From Planctomycetota bacterium (lineage in GTDB: Bacteria > Planctomycetota > Phycisphaerae > Sedimentisphaerales > Anaerobacaceae), in the NCBI GenBank assembly GCA_014384025.1, contig JACNGQ010000198.1, positions 1 to 64,000 of the forward strand: a stretch of 64,000 bases of DNA. The letters are read 5' to 3'. How positions within the stretch are numbered: the first letter of the stretch is position 1; every line of letters starts with the position of its first letter. The notes beneath the pieces are model-generated. The model was given only the letters and a program-made list of their open reading frames with translations. It was not told where the DNA came from and made no database searches. This document shows positions 5,083-14,421 of this stretch, in pieces. The translations under genes and the position numbers were made by a program.

Positions 5083-5126
5083 GCTCCTGCTCTCAACTAA
5101 AGTAACTATATAGCAGGGGCTTTTTT
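5083..5126 (+). terminator. intrinsic terminator
   Basis: GCTCCTGCT...AGCAGGGGC (9 bp, one G-T pair) is followed at once by TTTTTT. It lies about 270 bases after the pseudopilin stop. The sequence from the T run onward (TTTTTTATTTGAA...) is repeated at 8142 onward. Confidence 0.75.
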
Positions 5127-5150
5127 ATTTGAATGAAAAAATCGTATCTT

Positions 5151-5194
5151 GAGCGGGCTGAGTTACCACACATATTCCTCCTCTCAGCCTGCTC
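5151..5194. repeat. terminator-associated stem-loop, copy 1
   Basis: GAGCGGGCTGAG pairs with CTCAGCCTGCTC over 12 bp with one G-T pair. The loop is TTACCACACATATTCCTCCT. The left arm and loop start are identical in copy 2 (8176-8219), where the right arm has changed but still pairs. Confidence 0.75.
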
Positions 5195-5199
5195 TTTCC

Positions 5200-5235
5200 T
5201 TTTTATTTCTCTTTTGTTACGAGGTCTTTGCAACA
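5200..5235 (-). pseudogene. fragment of the sigma-associated two-TM gene
   Basis: TTATTTCTCTTTTGTTACGAGGTCTTTGCAACAT is nearly identical to 8427-8460, which encodes MLQRPHNKREIN in the 8374-8739 gene. Flanking similarity fades quickly. I read this as a remnant of a former second copy of that locus. Confidence 0.6.
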
Positions 5236-5334: not shown

Positions 5335-6708
5335 TTAAGGGATCGTCATTCTATTTGCAAGAGAAACGGCAAGATTAATGATGACACAACCGCCAAACTG
5401 GCCTTCACTGTCGTTACCTACAATACGTATCCCGAGGACCTTAAAATCAATCTCAATGTTACTAAGATCATATCCCAGGACCATTAAACCCGGAGCGTTT
5501 CCACCGCGATAGTGTGTGACAGAGATTTTTTGCAATCGCTGGTCGCCGTCGGTGAGGTAAACGCTGGGCGGGATGCCCGATTTCAGTATAAAGAGACCGA
5601 TTTCAGGGCCGGGCCGATCGAGAAGCGGTAATTGGAAGCGATATTCTATCCAGTGGTCCTGTTCGAGAATCAGCATTGCGTTTTGTGGCTTATCTCTGGG
5701 ATCAGAAATGAACTGAATGCCTTGCTCGCCCGGCAAGTTTACAAAACACCGCCAATCATCCTGGTCCGGATTGTGGCTTGCGGCGATTTCTCTAAGGAAG
5801 AAGTTACCCATGAATATCATGTTATTGTCGAGAGTGGGCTGCCCCGGGCCATCCCAGGTTACAGCGACTGGCCCGGTACGGCCCGGTCGATTCCCGGAGG
5901 AGGTGATGATCGCAGTTGTGCCGGTCAGGGCCAGAATGATTCCTATGGCGATAAGGAACGCCTTGGACAGCACAGTAGCCAATACCGCCCCAGTTACCGC
6001 GACCTTGGCTGATGCGGCCTTGACGGCGGGCATAGCAGAGGCGGACTTGGTCGATGTGGACGTCATCGCCGCAAACACCGTGAGCGCACCGAGGAAATGG
6101 GAGCGTTTTAGGCCTTTTCGGGCGAGTTGGCTTCTCAGGGCCGTCCTGGCGCGATAGAATAACATTTTTGTCCGCATTTGAGAACCGCCCAGAACTGTGG
6201 CAATCTGGGCGTAAGACTGATCCTCCAGGCAACGTAATGTCAGTACAGTTCTGTATTCCAGACTCAATGCGTCCATGGCAGCCAGGATGAACTCGACCAT
6301 TTCCTTGTGCCATAATGTTGCAGCCGGTCCGCTGTAGGTCTTTCCTGACATCGTTTCCAGAATCTCTGAATTGACCATGGTGCGCTGATCCATACGCCTG
6401 GCACCTTGTGCACGGAAGTGATGCTGGACCTTTCCGAGTGCTGTTCTGTAAAGCCATGACCAAAAGCCGTTCTCATTAGTCAGATGAAGACGCGGCAGGG
6501 CCCTGACCAATTCCAGGAGTGTTTCCTGGGTCAGATCTTCTGATAGATCATGATCCAGGGTCATGCGATTAATAAAGGTATATACCTTCGGCTTGGCCTG
6601 CTGAGCGAGCAAAGAACGACTTTCCTTACACCCTCTTTGGGCCTTACGTAAGCAATCTAAGTTAATCTGATCCACACTCGAACGCATACGACTTTCAGGG
6701 GCTCTCAC
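5335..6708 (-). CDS. ECF-type sigma factor fused to a transmembrane and extracytoplasmic domain
   Basis: 457 aa. Residues ~35-100 form sigma region 2 (DLSEDLTQETLLELVRALPR, FWSWLYRTALGKV); ~135-190 form region 4 with the recognition helix (LRCLEDQSYAQIATVLGG..RTKMLFYRARTALR). After a small-residue linker, a hydrophobic helix (~238-270) is followed by a ~185-residue tail rich in beta strands (WIEYRFQLPLL..IGLFILKSGIPPSVYL), perhaps a jelly-roll. The layout suggests a membrane-held sigma factor whose outer domain senses a signal. Start GTG at 6708 (AGAG upstream) or ATG at 6687. It is divergent from the metallo-beta-lactamase-fold gene. Neither the release mechanism nor the ligand can be seen. 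Confidence 0.8.
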   Translation of the reverse strand: MRAPESRMRSSVDQINLDCLRKAQRGCKESRSLLAQQAKPKVYTFINRMTLDHDLSEDLTQETLLELVRALPRLHLTNENGFWSWLYRTALGKVQHHFRAQGARRMDQRTMVNSEILETMSGKTYSGPAATLWHKEMVEFILAAMDALSLEYRTVLTLRCLEDQSYAQIATVLGGSQMRTKMLFYRARTALRSQLARKGLKRSHFLGALTVFAAMTSTSTKSASAMPAVKAASAKVAVTGAVLATVLSKAFLIAIGIILALTGTTAIITSSGNRPGRTGPVAVTWDGPGQPTLDNNMIFMGNFFLREIAASHNPDQDDWRCFVNLPGEQGIQFISDPRDKPQNAMLILEQDHWIEYRFQLPLLDRPGPEIGLFILKSGIPPSVYLTDGDQRLQKISVTHYRGGNAPGLMVLGYDLSNIEIDFKVLGIRIVGNDSEGQFGGCVIINLAVSLANRMTIP

Positions 6709-6923
6709 AAATCTCTGTTGGCTTCGGCCTTCCCTGGCCTTCGGGCCGAGACGAAGGTTTTGAAAGAATATCTTTTATAAATCCATTGTAAATCATGGAT
6801 TAAGACTTTTCTATTCGCTTTTCAAAAAAAAAATAAAAAAAACAAACCCTCCGGCCAGAAATCGGGATGTATGTATTTAGTGAATAAGAAAACACAATAG
6901 AAACTTTAACAAAAGGAGACGAC

Positions 6924-8018
6924 ATGAAAAATCTATGTTATTCATTGTTGCTTTGTGGGATTGCCTTATTATGGGTACCTGCTGCCTACGGTCAAGACAT
7001 CACCATTCGACGTGTAACAGATCGCGTTATTACATTGAGTATGTCAAATCTCAGTATGCATACCAATGTAACTGTTATCGAGACACAGAAAGGGCTGGTG
7101 TGTATCGAGACGGAATTCGTACCGTCGGTCATGAAAACGATCAAAGAAGCCGCTGAAAAAGAGTTGGGGCGCAACGATTGGGCCTATGTGATCAATACTC
7201 ATAGCCATCTTCATCACGCGAAAGGAAATGCCGCATTCCCCGAGACCCCGATCATCGGACCCAACAAGACGATGATGGATTGGTTCAAAAGCACACTGTC
7301 AAGCAAGGAAGGACGCAGGGCATACTGCGATTACTCCGGGGTAACCTATGGTATCAAGGCATTGCGACAGAACCTGGCTCAGGCAAGGTTGACTGCGGTA
7401 CAGAAAGAAGAACTGCGCCGGAGACTTCGCTTCTGCTATGCGATTCAAAAGGAAATCATGGACGGCTTTGAGGTTCGAAATCCCACCATCGCCTATCGCG
7501 AAGGCCAGGAACTGGATTTGGGTGACACGCATCTGCAATTGTTCTACTGGGGTGACGGTATAAACCACAGTTCCATTTTTGTATATGTTCTGGAAGACAA
7601 AATGTTGGTGGGGATGGGCATGGGCCAGCAGGGATGGATAGAGAGCCCCGCTGAGGAAGTGAATTTAGAGGGGTTTCGCCATGCCATTTCCATGTTTGAG
7701 AAACTCAGTGACAAGAAATTCCCCATCGACTTTATGATCGAAGTTCATAGTCCTGAGATTCATAGGTCGAGACAGCGCTTTCAATATTCACACACATATT
7801 ATCAAAAACTGCTGGACAACCTGACCCAGGCACAGGAAGATGGGCTCTCCCTGCAACAAGCCAAGGCCAAGTTCCCTTATAGCAAGGAACCTGCCGCTAT
7901 GCGAAGATATTTCTATCGACCTGAGAATGTCAGCGAAAGACATCTAAAAACCATAGATAGAATCTGGGAATTATTGCAGAATAGAGGATCGTCTCACTCA
8001 GTAGCACACAATCATTGA
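6924..8018 (+). CDS. exported metallo-beta-lactamase-fold protein with altered metal motif
   Basis: 364 aa with signal peptide (~1-24, ending AAYGQ). The fold is indicated by VINTHSHLHHAKGN (H93-S-H95-L-H97-H98), then GDTHLQLFYWGDGINHSSIFVYVLEDKMLVGMG and a late EVHSP. In the canonical HxHxDH motif the Asp is a zinc ligand; here it is His97, so site 2 chemistry may differ. The C-terminal ~90 residues are helical. ATG is preceded by AAAGGAG. It lies divergent from the membrane-tethered sigma factor and upstream of the structured 3' region at 8028-8154. Substrate unknown; a periplasmic hydrolase is likely. Confidence 0.8.
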   Translation: MKNLCYSLLLCGIALLWVPAAYGQDITIRRVTDRVITLSMSNLSMHTNVTVIETQKGLVCIETEFVPSVMKTIKEAAEKELGRNDWAYVINTHSHLHHAKGNAAFPETPIIGPNKTMMDWFKSTLSSKEGRRAYCDYSGVTYGIKALRQNLAQARLTAVQKEELRRRLRFCYAIQKEIMDGFEVRNPTIAYREGQELDLGDTHLQLFYWGDGINHSSIFVYVLEDKMLVGMGMGQQGWIESPAEEVNLEGFRHAISMFEKLSDKKFPIDFMIEVHSPEIHRSRQRFQYSHTYYQKLLDNLTQAQEDGLSLQQAKAKFPYSKEPAAMRRYFYRPENVSERHLKTIDRIWELLQNRGSSHSVAHNH

Positions 8019-8027
8019 TTGGGTCCG

Positions 8028-8148
8028 GCCCCTGCCGTGCTCATCTGGTTCTTGAATAACAGGAGACGAGATCATGACAACGAATGACAAAAGAATTATT
8101 TTGGCAATAGTCTCTCTGTTTCTGACGAGTGCGGCAGGGGGCTTTTTT
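8028..8148 (+). terminator. long-range terminator hairpin enclosing a mini-ORF
   Basis: GCCCCTGCCGTGC (from 8028) pairs with GTGCGGCAGGGGGC (to 8142), followed by TTTTTT. The stem is strong, but the loop is about 85 bases and contains the ribosome binding site and body of the 26-codon ORF. Translation of that ORF would run through the 3' arm. Confidence 0.55.
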
Positions 8149-8154
8149 ATTTGA
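8074..8154 (+). CDS. 26-aa hydrophobic mini-protein or leader peptide
   Basis: Not in the supplied track. ATG at 8074 is preceded by AGGAGACGAGATC (AGGAG, good spacing) and encodes MTTNDKRIILAIVSLFLTSAAGGFFI: a short polar N-terminus and one hydrophobic helix. The stop codon lies just after the T run of the terminator, so coding and terminator overlap. It could be a one-helix membrane peptide, a leader whose translation disrupts the hairpin, or a remnant of a signal peptide. Family unknown. Confidence 0.4.
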   Translation: MTTNDKRIILAIVSLFLTSAAGGFFI

Positions 8155-8373
8155 ATTAAATAGAAATCGCATTTAGAGCGGGCTGAGTTACCACACCTCT
8201 GTTCCTCCACTCCGCCCGCCCTTTCCTTTCATTTTGCGTTGAAATCTCCTGGCCTTACATCAGATACACCTCGGTCTTAGTTTGGCCATTGAAGAACGAT
8301 GAAACGCCTCATCAGAGCAAACCTCTGAAATAATGAAACTCTATATCTAACGAACTCAATAAGCAGGGCATTG
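8155..8373. other. 3' spacer of the sigma-associated locus
   Basis: After the stem-loop, 8240-8345 (CCTTACATCAGATACACCTCGGTCTTAGTTTGGCC...) is homologous to 665-775 (CCTACCTCAGATACCCTTCGGCTTGAGTTTGGTC...). No coding signal was seen on either strand. Confidence 0.6.
8176..8219. repeat. terminator-associated stem-loop, copy 2
   Basis: GAGCGGGCTGAGTTACCACAC is identical to 5151-5171. GCGGGCTGAG pairs with CTCCGCCCGC at 9 of 10 positions. The upstream TTTTTTATTTGAA is also shared with copy 1. Confidence 0.7.
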
Positions 8374-8739
8374 TTATTTATCTTTGATTGTCTCAATCAA
8401 TTCAGCGATACGAAGCTGTAGTTTGTTTATTTCTCGTTTGTTATGAGGTCTTTGCAGCATTACCCAAGCGAAAACGCTTATGAAGCCAAGCCAATGGCTG
8501 CAACAGACTACTATGGCAGCATGCATGATCTGGTATCTGGTCTGGCCGGTAATGAAAAACTCTTTAACACAACAAACGATGAGGATTGAAAGAATTATAT
8601 ATTGAGCATAAACACATTTTATAACCCAACGCATTTTTTTGCTGTAAGCATCCTTAAACCATGAACGCATTGTGTCTTCTTTTGATTCATCGTACTGCGG
8701 CGGATTGTCCATTATCTTTTTTATCTGTTCTTTATCCAT
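8374..8739 (-). CDS. two-TM protein downstream of ECF sigma factor, putative anti-sigma partner
   Basis: 121 aa. An acidic N-terminal helix (MDKEQIKKIMDNPPQYDESKEDTMRSWFKDAYSKK) is followed by two hydrophobic helices (~38-62, ~70-95) and a charged helical tail (RPHNKREINKLQLRIAELIE). This resembles the small planctomycete membrane proteins found after ECF sigma genes (DUF6768-like by recollection). The start has GAGGTG upstream and lies 15 bases after the sigma stop, so the two are surely co-transcribed. A role in holding the sigma factor at the membrane is inferred from context. A fragment of this gene survives at 5200-5235. Confidence 0.7.
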   Translation of the reverse strand: MDKEQIKKIMDNPPQYDESKEDTMRSWFKDAYSKKMRWVIKCVYAQYIILSILIVCCVKEFFITGQTRYQIMHAAIVVCCSHWLGFISVFAWVMLQRPHNKREINKLQLRIAELIETIKDK

Positions 8740-8754
8740 TTTTCACCTCGAAAA

Positions 8755-9288
8755 TTAATTATCAAAATATTTTTTCCATAGCTGTTTCAATTCTTCTCTT
8801 GCAGTAAACAGGCGAGATTTTACGGTGCCTGTTGGAATATTCAGGGCAATACTTATTTCAGGAATACTTAGCTGCTCAAAATAATACAGACTCAGGATCA
8901 CTCTACTATCACTTTTTAATCTTTGAACCAGTTCTTTTACCTGTGAATCATTATCTTTTCGATTAGAATCAACTTCAATTGACTCAAGGTTTATATGCTG
9001 ATTTTTCTTTTTGTTTTTCAACCAGTCAATCGTTCTGTTTGTGGCGATTCTATAAGCCCAGGCCTTAAAATTTGCAGGGTCATGTAATTTTGTTAATCCT
9101 TTTATTATTTCAAGCCAACATTGCTGAGTGATATCCCATGAAGCATGGACGTCAGTAGTCAATCTAAAGACATACTGCCATAACTTTTTCTGCCATAGAG
9201 AAACCAGCTTATCCAACGCGGCCTCATTGCCATCCTGAGCAGCCATAACCAAAAAATGGTTTTGAATGTTTGAAAGATTATCTTTCAT
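8755..9288 (-). CDS. RNA polymerase ECF sigma factor
   Basis: 177 aa, usual ECF length. Region 2 is visible at ~20-90 (WQYVFRLTTDVHASWDITQQCWLEIIKGL, FKAWAYRIATNRTIDWL) and region 4 at ~115-170 (ILSLYYFEQLSIPEISIALNIPTGTVKSRLFTAREEL). The start has AAGG nearby. A perfect 9-bp inverted repeat lies ~60 bases upstream of the start. The neighbouring two-TM protein is the likely regulator. Signal and regulon unknown. Confidence 0.9.
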   Translation of the reverse strand: MKDNLSNIQNHFLVMAAQDGNEAALDKLVSLWQKKLWQYVFRLTTDVHASWDITQQCWLEIIKGLTKLHDPANFKAWAYRIATNRTIDWLKNKKKNQHINLESIEVDSNRKDNDSQVKELVQRLKSDSRVILSLYYFEQLSIPEISIALNIPTGTVKSRLFTAREELKQLWKKYFDN

Positions 9289-9347
9289 TTACCTTCTTAG
9301 GCTTGTGAGCAGCTTAATTGGTTCATTTAATTTAACATTTTATTGCA

Positions 9348-9372
9348 TTTTCCCAATAATAGTTTGGGAAAA
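9348..9372. promoter_or_regulatory. 9-bp inverted repeat upstream of the ECF sigma gene
   Basis: TTTTCCCAA-TAATAGT-TTGGGAAAA is a perfect inverted repeat in the leader of the 8755-9288 gene. It could be an operator, an autoregulatory site or a transcript hairpin; the sequence alone does not decide. Confidence 0.4.
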
Positions 9373-9405
9373 GTAACAAGAGGGATGATTGTAATTCTAT
9401 TCATT

Positions 9406-9426
9406 ATTGGTGCGATTCATCGCACC
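9406..9426. repeat. GTGCGATTCATCGCAC palindromic element, copy 2
   Basis: GGTGCGA-TTCA-TCGCACC forms a 7-bp stem with a 4-base loop. ATTGGTGCGATTCATCGCA is shared with 333-352. Confidence 0.7.
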
Positions 9427-9430
9427 CGAA

Positions 9431-9496
9431 CTATGTGGATCTGACTATTTTTATGACATCGTCGAATTCGTTTAAGATAGCATGGTCTTTTTGGGC
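9431..9496 (-). pseudogene. relic of a second PutP-type symporter C-terminus
   Basis: The minus strand reads AQKDHAILNEFDDVIKIVRST then stop. The intact symporter at 10170 ends QKDQTILNEFDYVLTKIKNT. DNA identity is also high (GTCGAATTCGTTTAAGAT is common to both). No upstream coding sequence remains, so this is a truncated duplicate left downstream of the response regulator. Confidence 0.75.
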
Positions 9497-9528
9497 TGAC
9501 GCCTTGTCACTTCGACTTTTCGCTCGGT

Positions 9529-9550
9529 CTAATAACGGTGCGGTTATTAG
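9529..9550 (-). terminator. hairpin after the response regulator
   Basis: CTAATAAC-GGTGCG-GTTATTAG is an 8-bp perfect stem 8 bases beyond the response-regulator stop. There is no T run on the minus strand; it probably protects or ends the transcript. Confidence 0.45.
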
Positions 9551-9558
9551 AATAAATT

Positions 9559-9957
9559 CTAAGTCTTAACTGCCAGAAGATTAGCGACTTCTGCAAGGAG
9601 AACGTCGGGTTCTATCGGTTTTTCCAGATAAGCATCGACCGGACACCATTGCGGGTCACCAACTGTAGCTTTAAAATCCATACCTATTTCGGTCTTAATA
9701 CCTGTCAGAATCAGGATTGGCATATCTTTGAACTGCGGGTCATTCTTAAGTTCCCGGGACATTTGTAAACCATCAACCCAAGTTGACATCATAATGTCCA
9801 GTATGGCCAAATCAGGTTTTTCAGCCTTAATTTTTTCCATACCATCCGCTTTATTGACGGCCGTAATAACAGTGTAGTGCTGGCTTTCCAAAACAGCCTG
9901 CAATGAATCTCTGAAGTCCGGGTCGTCTTCAGCAATTAAAATCTTTGCTTTTGTCAT
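9559..9957 (-). CDS. stand-alone response-regulator receiver protein
   Basis: 132 aa, receiver domain only. The acidic pair EDD (~10-12), phospho-acceptor Asp54 (LAILDIMM), the Thr of ILILTG (~84) and the Lys of YLEKP (~111) are all present. There is no output domain, so it acts by protein contact, CheY/Spo0F style, or in a phosphorelay whose kinase is not in this window. The start is well supported by GAGGTG. It follows the symporter by about 210 bases on the same strand. Confidence 0.9.
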   Translation of the reverse strand: MTKAKILIAEDDPDFRDSLQAVLESQHYTVITAVNKADGMEKIKAEKPDLAILDIMMSTWVDGLQMSRELKNDPQFKDMPILILTGIKTEIGMDFKATVGDPQWCPVDAYLEKPIEPDVLLAEVANLLAVKT

Positions 9958-10169
9958 AATTCACCTCACAAGGTATCGTTTTTTGGGCCACACGAAACCA
10001 CTTTTCGAATAATCACACAAAGACTAATGTATTCCCTTTTTATAAGCTCACGGAGAACTCTCAATATTTTTTATAGCATTAATAATGAAAATTGCCGCGT
10101 CATTCAGATTATATCGGCATTCCACGAAATGACACAAAAGTTTTTTATAGTAAAGATTGCCACGTCGGG

Positions 10170-11642
10170 CTATGTGTTTTTGATTTTTGTCAGGACGTAG
10201 TCGAATTCGTTTAAGATGGTTTGGTCTTTTTGACTCAGAAAGAGGTTGATCAGGGAAATTGTAAGGCAATTTGCGATGAATCCGGGGACGATTTCGTACA
10301 TTTTGTCGCTTAAGCCGACCTGTTTCCATAGAACAAGTACCACTGTTCCGGTTACCATTCCAGCTAAAGCCGATTGCCATGTTGTCTTTTTGCTGTACAG
10401 TGCGAAAAGGACCAAGGGACCAAAGGCAGCACCGAAGCCGCCCCATGCGTAGGAGACTATTTCCAGAATCGTGTTGTTGCGGTCCAGTGCCATAACTAAC
10501 GCAATAATCGAAATGATAACTACACAGCCTCGTCCAACTAAAATAATTTCCCTTTCGGAGGCTTCCTTCCTTATCGCCTTAGAGTAAAAGTCTTCCGATA
10601 ACGCCGACGACGAGACAAGTAACTGCGAATCTATGGTTGACATAATGGCCGAGAAAATCGCCGCCAAGAGTATCCCGCCAAACCATGGATTGAAGAGGTC
10701 GCTTATCATAAAAATAAAGACTTTTTCCTGGTCTCCGCCGGTGAGGTCATCGTACATTGCAATACCAATCAAGCCGATGATTACTGCTCCGCATAACGAT
10801 AGAAAAACCCAGATGATGGCGATGGCCATAGATTTTCCGAGTTTATCAACCGATTTGATGGACATGAATCGTACCAATATATGCGGCTGGCCGAAGTAAC
10901 CCAAGCCCCAGGCCATGCTGGATATAATCATACAGATGCAAACAGCCAATGTACCGCCTTGCGGCATCAGGCTTGTCGATATGTCCTTTAACTCCATAGC
11001 TTCTCTTATTGCTGTAACTCCACCTGCGGTATTATAAGTCAACGCCGGAACTATAATTATCGCAAAGACCATTAACGCGCCCTGCAGAAGGTCCGTCCAG
11101 CATACCGCTAAAAAACCGCCCATGAAGGTGTAAGCTATTATGACAAGGCCGCCGATGATTACGGCGAGGTGGTACTGGACATTAAAGGTCGATTCGAACA
11201 GCTTTCCTGTTGCTACGAGTCCGGAAGAGGCGTATATGGCGAAAAAGATAAGTATTATTATAGCTGAAACGATTCTAAGCAGGCCGGTCGGGTCTCTGAA
11301 ACGCGCTTCGAAAAAGCAGGGCAGTGTTATCGCATTGGTTATTTCCGTATATACCCGGAGCCGGGCTGAGACCAGCTTCCAGTTCAGGACTGTCCCTATG
11401 AAAAGCCCTGTAGCAATCCAGGTCTTTCCCATTCCGCCAAGGTAAATTGCCCCGGGCAGGCCCATCAGGAGCCAGCCGCTCATGTCGGAGGCCTGTGCCG
11501 ATAGGGCGGTGACCCATGAGCCCATGCCGCGTCCGCCCAGAAGATAGTCTTCTATATTAGACGACTTTCGATAAAAGAAAAAACCGATACCAAGTAAGGC
11601 TATGAAATAAGCTATAAATGTAATTAATGTTGCTGCCGGCAT
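10170..11642 (-). CDS. sodium:solute symporter (PutP-like)
   Basis: 490 aa with about 13 hydrophobic helices. SSS-family marks are the early EDYLLGGRGMGSWVTALSAQASDMSGWLLMGLPG, the GGFLAVCWTDLLQG segment and AAIFSAIMSTIDSQLLVSSSALSEDF, which resembles the PutP Na+ site region. Overall similarity in memory is to sodium/proline symporters, but the context next to a beta-helix protein and an isomerase-fold protein makes a sugar or sugar-acid substrate just as possible. It is 73 bases after the beta-helix gene. No clear Shine-Dalgarno. The final residues are duplicated in the relic at 9431-9496. Confidence 0.85.
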   Translation of the reverse strand: MPAATLITFIAYFIALLGIGFFFYRKSSNIEDYLLGGRGMGSWVTALSAQASDMSGWLLMGLPGAIYLGGMGKTWIATGLFIGTVLNWKLVSARLRVYTEITNAITLPCFFEARFRDPTGLLRIVSAIIILIFFAIYASSGLVATGKLFESTFNVQYHLAVIIGGLVIIAYTFMGGFLAVCWTDLLQGALMVFAIIIVPALTYNTAGGVTAIREAMELKDISTSLMPQGGTLAVCICMIISSMAWGLGYFGQPHILVRFMSIKSVDKLGKSMAIAIIWVFLSLCGAVIIGLIGIAMYDDLTGGDQEKVFIFMISDLFNPWFGGILLAAIFSAIMSTIDSQLLVSSSALSEDFYSKAIRKEASEREIILVGRGCVVIISIIALVMALDRNNTILEIVSYAWGGFGAAFGPLVLFALYSKKTTWQSALAGMVTGTVVLVLWKQVGLSDKMYEIVPGFIANCLTISLINLFLSQKDQTILNEFDYVLTKIKNT

Positions 11643-11715
11643 TTTTTGTGAAAAAAATAGAGACTTTTTTATAGACTATTTCGGCAGGGTGGAACTTGCC
11701 CCATTATTAATTTCA

Positions 11716-14421
11716 TTAGCTCTGGTTTGTCAGTTTGAAATTATCGAGATAGAAGACGGTTCTTTTTGTTGCGTTGCTGGTGAAGCCGACCCACGTCAGC
11801 TTCTCGAATTTTCCATTTCCGTTCTTTAGCCCTTTGAACTGATGTCTCTTTTGCCCTTCTATAGCTACGCTCAAGTCCCACTTGCCTGCGTTTATCTCGC
11901 CGAGCGGGGCGGTAATCTTTAAATGTATCCATTGCCCGACAGGCAGTTCCAGCAGGGTCTTGTCAGCGACTTTGAGCTTTTTTCCATCGAGCTGGAAATT
12001 AGGGCCGACTCCATAGGGTGACAATCGCCAGTCGCGCCACTCATAGTTTATCAGTACGCCTTCTTCAATTCGTATGTCAAACTCACTGCTTGTTGTACCT
12101 GCACTATGATTGGGTGCGTAAACATAATGAGGATTATAAGCGTGCTGAAGTCCCTGGGCATCGACGATTTTCAAGCTGTGCTTTCCGCCGGCCGCTGTTT
12201 CATCTGTTACAATAATGGAGTCACCCTTCTTCTCGACGTGAACTTCTGCGCTCGCGGGTTGAGAACCGACCGGCACGGCCTCGAAATTGTCATTAATCGA
12301 AACCGGCGGCGGATCAGGCGCGACTTCCAATGGGGGATATGTTACGTTTTTCGCCTTATCAATCCAGGCGGGGGGGCCATAGACTCCGGCCTTGCTGTAA
12401 TCGAACGGTTTGAATCCAATTTTTAAGGCAGGGGAGTTCGGCTTCAAGCTGAAATCATAATTTTCCGCATCGACGAACAGCGGGTCGGCGATAATAGAAT
12501 CCGTATCTTGACCTCTGTCCTGCCACTGCTCCATTGTCAGACCGGCAGGCTTGATCTCTTTGCCTGATGTGTTCCAGTAGCAGTTGTCCCGCATTTTCAC
12601 TTTAACCTCTGTCCATCGGCCGGACATCAGGGGACCAGTATTCCAATAGACGATATTATTTTCAAATGTGAAAGAAAGATGCTCCTCCACCCGTGTGGCC
12701 TGGAGCTGATGAAGTTTGCTGAAAGCCAGGATATTGTTTCGGACGATATTTTCCTTGCCGTAGTGCTGATGGAAGCCACCTGTCCTTGTATTATAGACAA
12801 GATTGTTTTCCATAACGATGCCGGTGGTGCCTTCGTCTGTATAAAGTCCCCAGCCGCCGTAAGAGTACGAATATATATCGTGAAAAACATTATTGCTTAC
12901 GACTGTGCCTTCCGAAGGCCCGAGCGTATAAATACCGCCCATATCGCTGAGCACACCCCAGCCGATATGGTGCACGTGATTGTAACTGAGGTTATTTCGT
13001 TTGGAAAGGCTGTCACTATATCCCCATCGCCAGCCGACCGAAAGACCGGTATAGAAAAAGTCTCCGATGTCGTTATGCGTAACGGCATTGTCGCCGCTTT
13101 GCCCAATCCAGACACCGACGGCGGAAGTATATATCCGGCCGCCTGAGCGAATGATATTGTTATCGACGGTAATATGGCTCGTTCGAGATGGCTGGTCGGG
13201 GCTAATCGCGCCTTCGCCGATTCGTACGCCTCCAGCGCCTAAGTCATAGAGGTAGGAGCGCTCGAGCCTGCTATTACTACAGCCCTTCCGAAACCAAACG
13301 CCGTAGGTCGCGACGTGGCTTACTTCGCAATCCTCTACCGATATATTATGCGCACCATCGGCCATGATGGCCGCCTCGGTAACATAGGCGGCCTGATAAG
13401 GTGCGTATCCTCCGGCCGGCAACAGCGATTGGTTGTGCTGGAAAGCAAGACCTTTCAATTTGATATTTTCAACGAATTCCTCGGCCTCTGGTTTTCCTTC
13501 GAAGATAACGAGCTTCTCAATCACCGGTGCTACTACATGCGATTGAGTCATATCTTCATCGGGCAGTGGTTTATAGTACAATGTGCCGTTTCGCGACAAG
13601 AACCATTCGCCGGGTGCATCCAGGGCGGCTTTGAAATTCTCTAAATGAAAACGAGTGTTCTTCGGCCAGCCGGAATAACTCTTTAGTTTTTCACCCACAG
13701 TAATAATCTTCTTGGCTGCCGTATCTATCTCCTTTAAGAAACGACGGCTTATACACCACTTATGATAGGCAACCAACGTAACATCGTGAAGCTCGTTGCT
13801 GTCAATATTTCGCAAAGGCCCAAGGGCATCACCCTGCACAGTTGTGGTACGTCGGTATTTGTCTTTACTGCCCTCTACCAAAACTTCAGAGGTATCGCCC
13901 ATATAGTGGTAGAATTTATCTGGAGTACGGGCACGCACGGCTCGACGGCCGTTTACGAACAACTGCTCGAAATACCATTCGCCATTTGCAACTTCCGGTA
14001 TATGAGCTTGCCAGATACCGTTTTGTCCTCGCTTGAAACCTTTAATTACCCGCCCTCCGGAGAATACCGGGATGGCATCCGCAGCCGCTTCGTAGATGAT
14101 TGGGTATTCTTTTGTTCCGCTGTCCCGGGGCGTCAATATGAAAGGTTCGCTCAGGGTGTAAGATCCATCGGTAACGATGATCCGAACAGGTTCTGTTATA
14201 GACCCTCTCGATTTCAATTGCCTAATCTTGTCCCGAGCACCAGCTAAAGAAGCCACCGGCCCGTTCGTGCGATTTCTGTTCGGTTTTTCACGGCGCCCCG
14301 ACCACTTGTCATTACCCTGGGTGGAAACGTATATCGTAAGAGCCCGGGCGCATTGGGTTAAAAATAATGAAACTAAAACGCAGCATAACAAAGACCTTAA
14401 CCTTAAACCATGCGTTCTCAT
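11716..14421 (-). CDS. secreted right-handed beta-helix protein with C-terminal lectin-like domain
   Basis: 901 aa. A signal peptide (~1-28, [10 protein letters not shown]) precedes [13 protein letters not shown], the standard opening of planctomycete/Bacteroidetes beta-helix proteins. Residues ~330-640 hold parallel beta-helix coils ([41 protein letters not shown] and following N-rich turns). Residues ~715-901 look like a separate jelly-roll ([13 protein letters not shown] ... [10 protein letters not shown]). Such proteins are often polysaccharide lyases or glycosidases, but no catalytic residues can be assigned. The start is supported by AGGAG. It lies between the isomerase-fold gene (46 bases) and the symporter. 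Confidence 0.8.

Follow-up and report, generated by a model that had tools for sequence, protein, structure and literature searches.

The gene at positions 5335..6708 on the minus strand of the window (the whole stretch of 64,000 nucleotides analysed here) encodes an ECF sigma factor in which sigma regions 2 and 4, a single membrane anchor and a folded beta-sandwich tail are joined in one chain. On balance, and with some reserve, we take the product to be a one-chain transmembrane signalling sigma factor, which would sense through a CBM-like domain outside the cell, be released by proteolysis and switch on the divergently transcribed gene for a secreted protein.

Domain organisation of the sigma protein

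An earlier note on this DNA had placed the open reading frame correctly and left its strand unstated. According to the ORF list, the product has 457 aa when translated from a GTG codon, or 450 aa from an ATG at 6687. This ATG is in-frame codon 8 (6687-6685), corresponds in position to the start ATG of the orthologue in genome G005 and, on this sequence comparison, is probably the true start rather than the GTG.

All features of the protein are on the minus strand. Pfam places sigma region 2 (PF04542, Sigma70_r2, E 1.7e-11) at residues 35-102 (6403..6606) and region 4 (PF08281, Sigma70_r4_2, E 2.3e-9) at residues 141-191 (6136..6288), as the earlier note had read them, and regions 1.1 and 3 are absent, the composition by which ECF (group 4) sigma-70 factors are recognised. 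The protein also scores 67.4 bits with NCBIfam TIGR02937 (cut-off 42.9), and a Foldseek search with its model matched SigW, AlgU and RpoE.

Just past region 4, the AF2 model includes a short, conserved hydrophobic helix, H1, at residues 204-217 (6058..6099). It is followed by the membrane anchor, H2, at about residues 238-270 (core 242-266; 5899..5997), which the earlier note had also pointed out and which is the single segment above the Kyte-Doolittle transmembrane threshold (best 19-mer, residues 242-260, 2.41). The homologous anchor of the 94% identical orthologue is at 248-266, and a strong anchor segment was detected by hydropathy in 18 of 18 aligned homologues. In the full-length AF2 model the sigma domains are confident and the block means of the tail are mostly 69-92. 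Because confidence is low at residues 218-282, the anchor is assigned by hydropathy rather than from the model. The order of sigma domains, anchor and tail was found again in about 20 homologues (about 30-94% identity) and therefore is not due to chance.

Most ECF sigma factors are held by a separate anti-sigma protein. The ORF list of the window has no separate anti-sigma gene directly adjoining the sigma gene, and no anti-sigma domain of the zinc finger or FecR type was recognisable in the linker or tail. Pfam gave no zinc finger match, residues 195-285 contain no cysteine, and there was no FecR match up to E 0.1.

Fold and location of the tail

The tail, residues 287-457 (5338..5850), was delimited from the AF2 model, Foldseek and profile matches, and is predicted to be extracytoplasmic. 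When modelled alone (with 42 homologues), it has 13 strands, a mean pLDDT of 87.9 and a pTM of 0.86. The strand-rich tail of the earlier note is thus predicted to be folded rather than disordered, and it is conserved in the homologues (about 20) that share the domain order. A jelly-roll beta-sandwich is indicated both by how the strands of the model are arranged and by the top 50 Foldseek ranks, which are dominated by the galactose-binding-like/CBM fold at modest scores. The nearest folds are the galactose-binding-like beta-sandwiches CBM6, CBM29, CBM32, CBM86, discoidin and APC10. The best E value against CBM structures is 1.6e-3, with TM scores of 0.46-0.58 (0.4-0.6 overall), and sequence identity to the CBM, discoidin and APC10 modules is about 7-16%. 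Pfam gave no match anywhere in the tail, CBM families included. The term CBM-like, as applied to this model, is a statement on the fold and not on the ligand. Matches of the tail profile to the PDB sequences of designed SAKe propellers covered only a 20-residue DPxxDxW stretch and were taken as chance.

The tail profile matched 42 of the 89 genomes of the bacterial family, and across the phylum it matched 3 of 392 genomes, namely this genome, one genome of the same order and one weak match. Most matches are either sigma-fused copies or copies forming the opening domain, behind the signal peptide, of secreted proteins of about 750 aa, which bear a Laminin_G_3 domain and dockerin-like repeats; one of the latter is encoded in this genome (L063, contig C72). 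Secreted, signal-peptide-bearing LamG/dockerin-like proteins that open with the tail domain were found in this genome and about 30 relatives, and one sigma protein of genome G059 has a tail with a clear, close relationship to the secreted copies. Since the domain is shared with signal-peptide-bearing proteins, it is taken as a genuine outside domain. This sharing provides the strongest argument that the tail is extracytoplasmic, and supports the location that the earlier note had proposed.

In a different topology, H1 and H2 would both span the membrane, and the tail would be cytoplasmic and regulate the sigma part, as the extensions of ECF41, ECF42 and ECF57 supposedly do. H1 is hydrophobic and is followed by an AxA-like motif, and in several homologues a further stretch of borderline hydrophobicity (1.3-1.7) lies between H1 and the anchor. 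However, the tail is closely related to a domain of secreted proteins, and the ECF41/42/57 extensions have other folds (SnoaL, TPR and WD40), none of which gave a Pfam match in the sigma protein. The 19-mer maximum of H1 is 0.89, and it ranges from 0.6 to 1.3 in the homologues (at most 1.28). Because H1 is thus below the transmembrane threshold in 18 of 18 aligned homologues, the two-span arrangement is considered quite improbable, and a single span with the tail outside is preferred.

Relatives and evolution of the sigma protein

Orthologues were identified in genomes G071 (Phycisphaerae, locus L001, 94% identity) and G005 (Phycisphaerales bin164, loci L002/L062, 74%), and a contig-edge piece of a further one in G084. 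These relationships place the source of the window among Phycisphaerae-like planctomycetes. Related tethered sigma proteins (E 1e-25 or better) are encoded in 68 of the 89 family genomes. Their open frames fall into size classes of about 280 aa (anchor only), 400-460 aa (the same and other tails) and 600-700 aa (other tails). Three sigma proteins with long matches are encoded in this genome (G000), on contigs C173 (the protein studied here), C239 (36% identity, same tail) and C67 (different tail). The tails are modular: in addition to the one described above, they include a serine beta-lactamase fold (L034, G075 C31; PF00144, E 6e-23) and carboxypeptidase-regulatory repeats (L010). By eye, the L034 tail is without the usual catalytic motifs, and it is possibly a fused penicillin or peptidoglycan sensor.

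In comparison of the window with L062, dN/dS is 0.09 in the sigma part, 0.13 in H1 and the linker, 0.85 in the anchor and 0.56 in the tail. Faster evolution of the tail than of the sigma part suits a diversifying sensor, and also a loosely constrained domain. In comparison with L001, dS is 0.40 in the sigma part and 0.01 in the tail, and at about 5380-5860 the window is 98-100% identical to L001 DNA (95% to 5980), with the sigma part near 88%. These values suggest either a recent exchange between species of the tail-coding segment alone or a chimera of metagenome assembly.

The divergent gene and the structure of the locus

Divergent from the sigma gene is a gene at 6924..8018 (plus strand) encoding a metallo-beta-lactamase (MBL)-fold protein with a signal peptide (PF00753, E 6.2e-7), which the earlier note had put forward as a candidate target. 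As a conserved partner it was rejected, since both orthologues with a readable upstream region have a divergent SBBP beta-propeller gene instead. In L001 this gene encodes 422 aa and is followed by a second SBBP gene. In G005 it is cut by an assembly gap, and its first codons, MNRSIFLIV, match the L001 propeller by eye. The part of the proposal that stands concerns the promoter block, which is conserved and nearly unique to the locus; the MBL body is replaced by an SBBP propeller in the orthologues. Over its promoter and signal-peptide region the MBL gene shares 83% identity with the second L001 propeller gene, a pattern suggestive of replacement of the secreted body while promoter and signal peptide were retained. 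Beside the MBL gene, at 8074..8154 (plus strand), is a remnant identified by blastn and by reading the sequence as the truncated start of an SBBP-propeller gene, limited to the signal peptide; positions 8055-8142 align with L147 (G000 C286) 5722-5635, and 8055-8133 with L001 7142-7066.

In G071, a block of about 3.9 kb containing the sigma and propeller genes (L001 3128-7032) lies inside an SBBP gene whose counterpart in G000 C286 is uninterrupted (L147 5611-5613), from which it is concluded that the locus has probably moved. About 40 bp are alike at both ends of this block, which may be mobile. In the window, a direct repeat of about 90 bp (5113-5202 and 8134-8229; 83% identical), with a core present just twice in the genome, flanks the sigma-MBL block. 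A 19-bp sequence, GCGGGCTGAGTTACCACAC, that flanks this block was considered as a dispersed element and rejected, as it occurs only twice in the genome. Further along, window positions 8374-9288 comprise a separate unit of a second ECF sigma gene (8755-9288, 177 aa) followed by the gene for a small DUF6768 protein, which probably has membrane helices and is perhaps the anti-sigma factor of the second ECF. About 2 kb downstream of the G005 sigma orthologue is a gene for an M50-like site-2 protease (L062 12723-13640; HEFGHA motif by eye), possibly there by chance.

Candidate promoters and neighbouring propeller genes

The intergenic region between the sigma gene and the divergent gene is conserved among the orthologous loci. 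A motif search and comparison of the orthologues revealed a candidate ECF promoter directed towards the divergent gene, AAACCC-N12-TCGGGATG, at 6844..6869 (plus strand). The motif precedes the MBL gene (its one occurrence in this genome) and both L001 propeller genes, and is also present in G005, where the -35/-10-like elements are retained and the spacer is different. Allowing spacers of 11-13, there were five matches in six whole genomes (about 35 Mb), four at the sigma locus (one in G000, two in G071, one in G005) and one elsewhere (G084, spacer 13), though these counts, like those for the second pattern below, refer to a pattern defined after inspecting the loci, and the promoter regions of the orthologues are related by descent. 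The two congeners in which a genome search found no close orthologue had no match to AAACCC-N11-13-TCGGGATG.

Paralogous sigma genes adjoin SBBP or PD40 propeller genes in L061/L118, L064, L103, L109, L114 and L053. In 332 kb of sequence, a second pattern, TGAAAC-N13-17-GGA[AT], occurs 20 times. Eleven of these copies, all with spacers of 15 or 16, fall within the 5.9 kb of DNA that lies upstream of sigma genes, against 0.35 expected for this likewise post hoc pattern. They are distributed over 7 of 21 loci, each of these seven having one copy 12-18 nt ahead of the start codon. Motifs of this type also lie ahead of neighbouring propeller genes, on both sides of the divergent pairs in L103 and L109, and ahead of unlinked PD40 clusters of this genome (L141 and L142). 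In L141 (G000 C349), positions 7678-13475 hold six tandem genes for secreted PD40-like propellers, the first preceded by TGAAAC-N15-GGGAT. As judged by these sequences, the L141 propellers are likely to belong, as distant members, to the regulon of the C239 sigma factor.

In a sample of five genomes, a sigma-tail gene is found no more than 5 kb from 5 of 12 PD40 clusters, where simple arithmetic predicts about 0.06. This proximity, and the many loci at which sigma-tail genes adjoin secreted SBBP or PD40 propellers, would also be expected if the tail were a dock rather than a ligand sensor, binding a co-regulated secreted propeller or another envelope protein that acts as receptor or inhibitor, in the manner of TonB receptors in cell-surface signalling. 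Galactose-binding-like folds bind proteins too, as in APC10 and discoidin. However, about half of the 21 loci are without a nearby propeller (some are cut by contig ends), and the neighbour in this genome is an MBL-fold protein, so a fixed pairing of tail and propeller is not conserved. A docking role is therefore regarded as somewhat unlikely, and the tail is preferably interpreted as a sensor.

Tentatively, the protein can be placed in a large planctomycete family of one-chain sigma factors, which may have exchangeable outside sensors (CBM-like, degenerate serine beta-lactamase fold, carboxypeptidase-regulatory-like repeats and other, unassigned domains) and no recognisable anti-sigma domain. 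Many members may be autoregulated, and may drive nearby genes for secreted beta-propellers or enzymes via an AAAC-N14-16-GGGAT-like promoter.

Proposed mechanism

In the proposed mechanism, sigma regions 2 and 4 would be in the cytoplasm, one helix would pass through the inner membrane, and the CBM-like beta-sandwich would be exposed outside as the sensor. When no signal is present, the sigma part would be held at the membrane and perhaps also masked by the conserved helix H1, which, given its position beside region 4 in a protein with no recognisable anti-sigma domain, is a candidate silencing element. Once a ligand is bound, probably a glycan or a surface or secreted protein, the chain would become accessible to cleavage, first by a site-1 and afterwards by a site-2 protease. 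In association with RNA polymerase, the released sigma part would then initiate transcription from the divergent AAACCC-N12-TCGGGATG promoter, leading to a secreted protein that has an MBL fold here and would be an SBBP beta-propeller in the orthologues.

The sigma part might instead be active while still bound to the membrane, with the ligand altering its conformation or oligomerisation and RNA polymerase recruited to the membrane, no cleavage being involved. No cut site or protease was identified for the sigma protein, and H1 and the linker (residues 201-237) are more conserved than the anchor (dN/dS 0.13-0.20 against 0.5-0.85), as expected for a contact with region 4. In Tuwongella immobilis, ECF sigma factors were found in detergent-soluble fractions, in a paper that makes no link to transmembrane anchors (PMC8567305). 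Against this, a tether would hinder the promoter search, and IutY, the closest experimentally tested one-chain system, requires cleavage (PMC5411451). Activity at the membrane is thus judged unlikely, and proteolytic release, for which cleavage of IutY by Prc and RseP is an experimental precedent, remains the preferred reading by analogy.

Comparison with known systems

The protein combines sensor, anchor and transcription factor in one chain, and the family has many copies with differing outside domains and with tails common to secreted proteins. The rarity implied by the earlier note was not borne out, as membrane sigma factors made of a single chain have been described before (IutY, ECF52, ECF48/53) and tethered paralogues are abundant in the bacterial family. 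The design therefore has precedents, while no description of this family or of its likely target genes appears to exist in the accessible literature. For members of the planctomycete family, a function and a promoter are proposed here for the first time, along with a link to uncharacterised secreted beta-propeller genes.

ECF57 and other planctomycete ECF factors have WD40 C-terminal extensions, for which protein interaction has been proposed (PMC8999054; PMC8567305). They resemble the protein studied here in having a large C-terminal extension on an ECF sigma factor and differ in its WD40 nature. The actinobacterial ECF48 and ECF53 have membrane-fused C-terminal extensions in which a zinc-finger domain is combined with one or two transmembrane helices, and their activation is predicted to be proteolytic (PMC8999054); the fusion of the extension to a membrane segment is shared, the zinc finger and the actinobacterial hosts are not. 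SCO4117 (ECF52) of Streptomyces coelicolor carries a sigma domain, a zinc finger, a transmembrane segment and an outside carbohydrate-binding module in one chain, and its proteolytic release has been proposed (PMC5826349). The joining of sigma domain and transmembrane segment to an outside domain is the same, and in the planctomycete protein this domain has a predicted CBM-like fold with modest scores. ECF52 has been reported from Actinobacteria only and includes a proline-rich spacer as well as an anti-sigma domain of the zinc-finger type, whereas the planctomycete protein is without the zinc finger and has a tail of another family.

IutY (ECF243) of Pseudomonas putida consists of a cytosolic ECF sigma domain, a single transmembrane segment and a periplasmic domain, and is released by Prc and RseP (PMC5411451). 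It is alike in having sigma domain, single span and outside domain in one chain. However, its periplasmic part is an anti-sigma domain of the FecR type that works with a TonB receptor, whereas the planctomycete tail is a beta-sandwich of CBM-like fold that gave no match to FecR, and no TonB receptor gene was seen beside the sigma gene. Because the defining FecR and zinc-finger features are absent, the protein was assigned to neither the IutY nor the ECF52 group. The family offers a natural test set for two questions: how a membrane anchor silences a sigma factor that has no recognisable anti-sigma domain, and how outside domains are paired with promoters.
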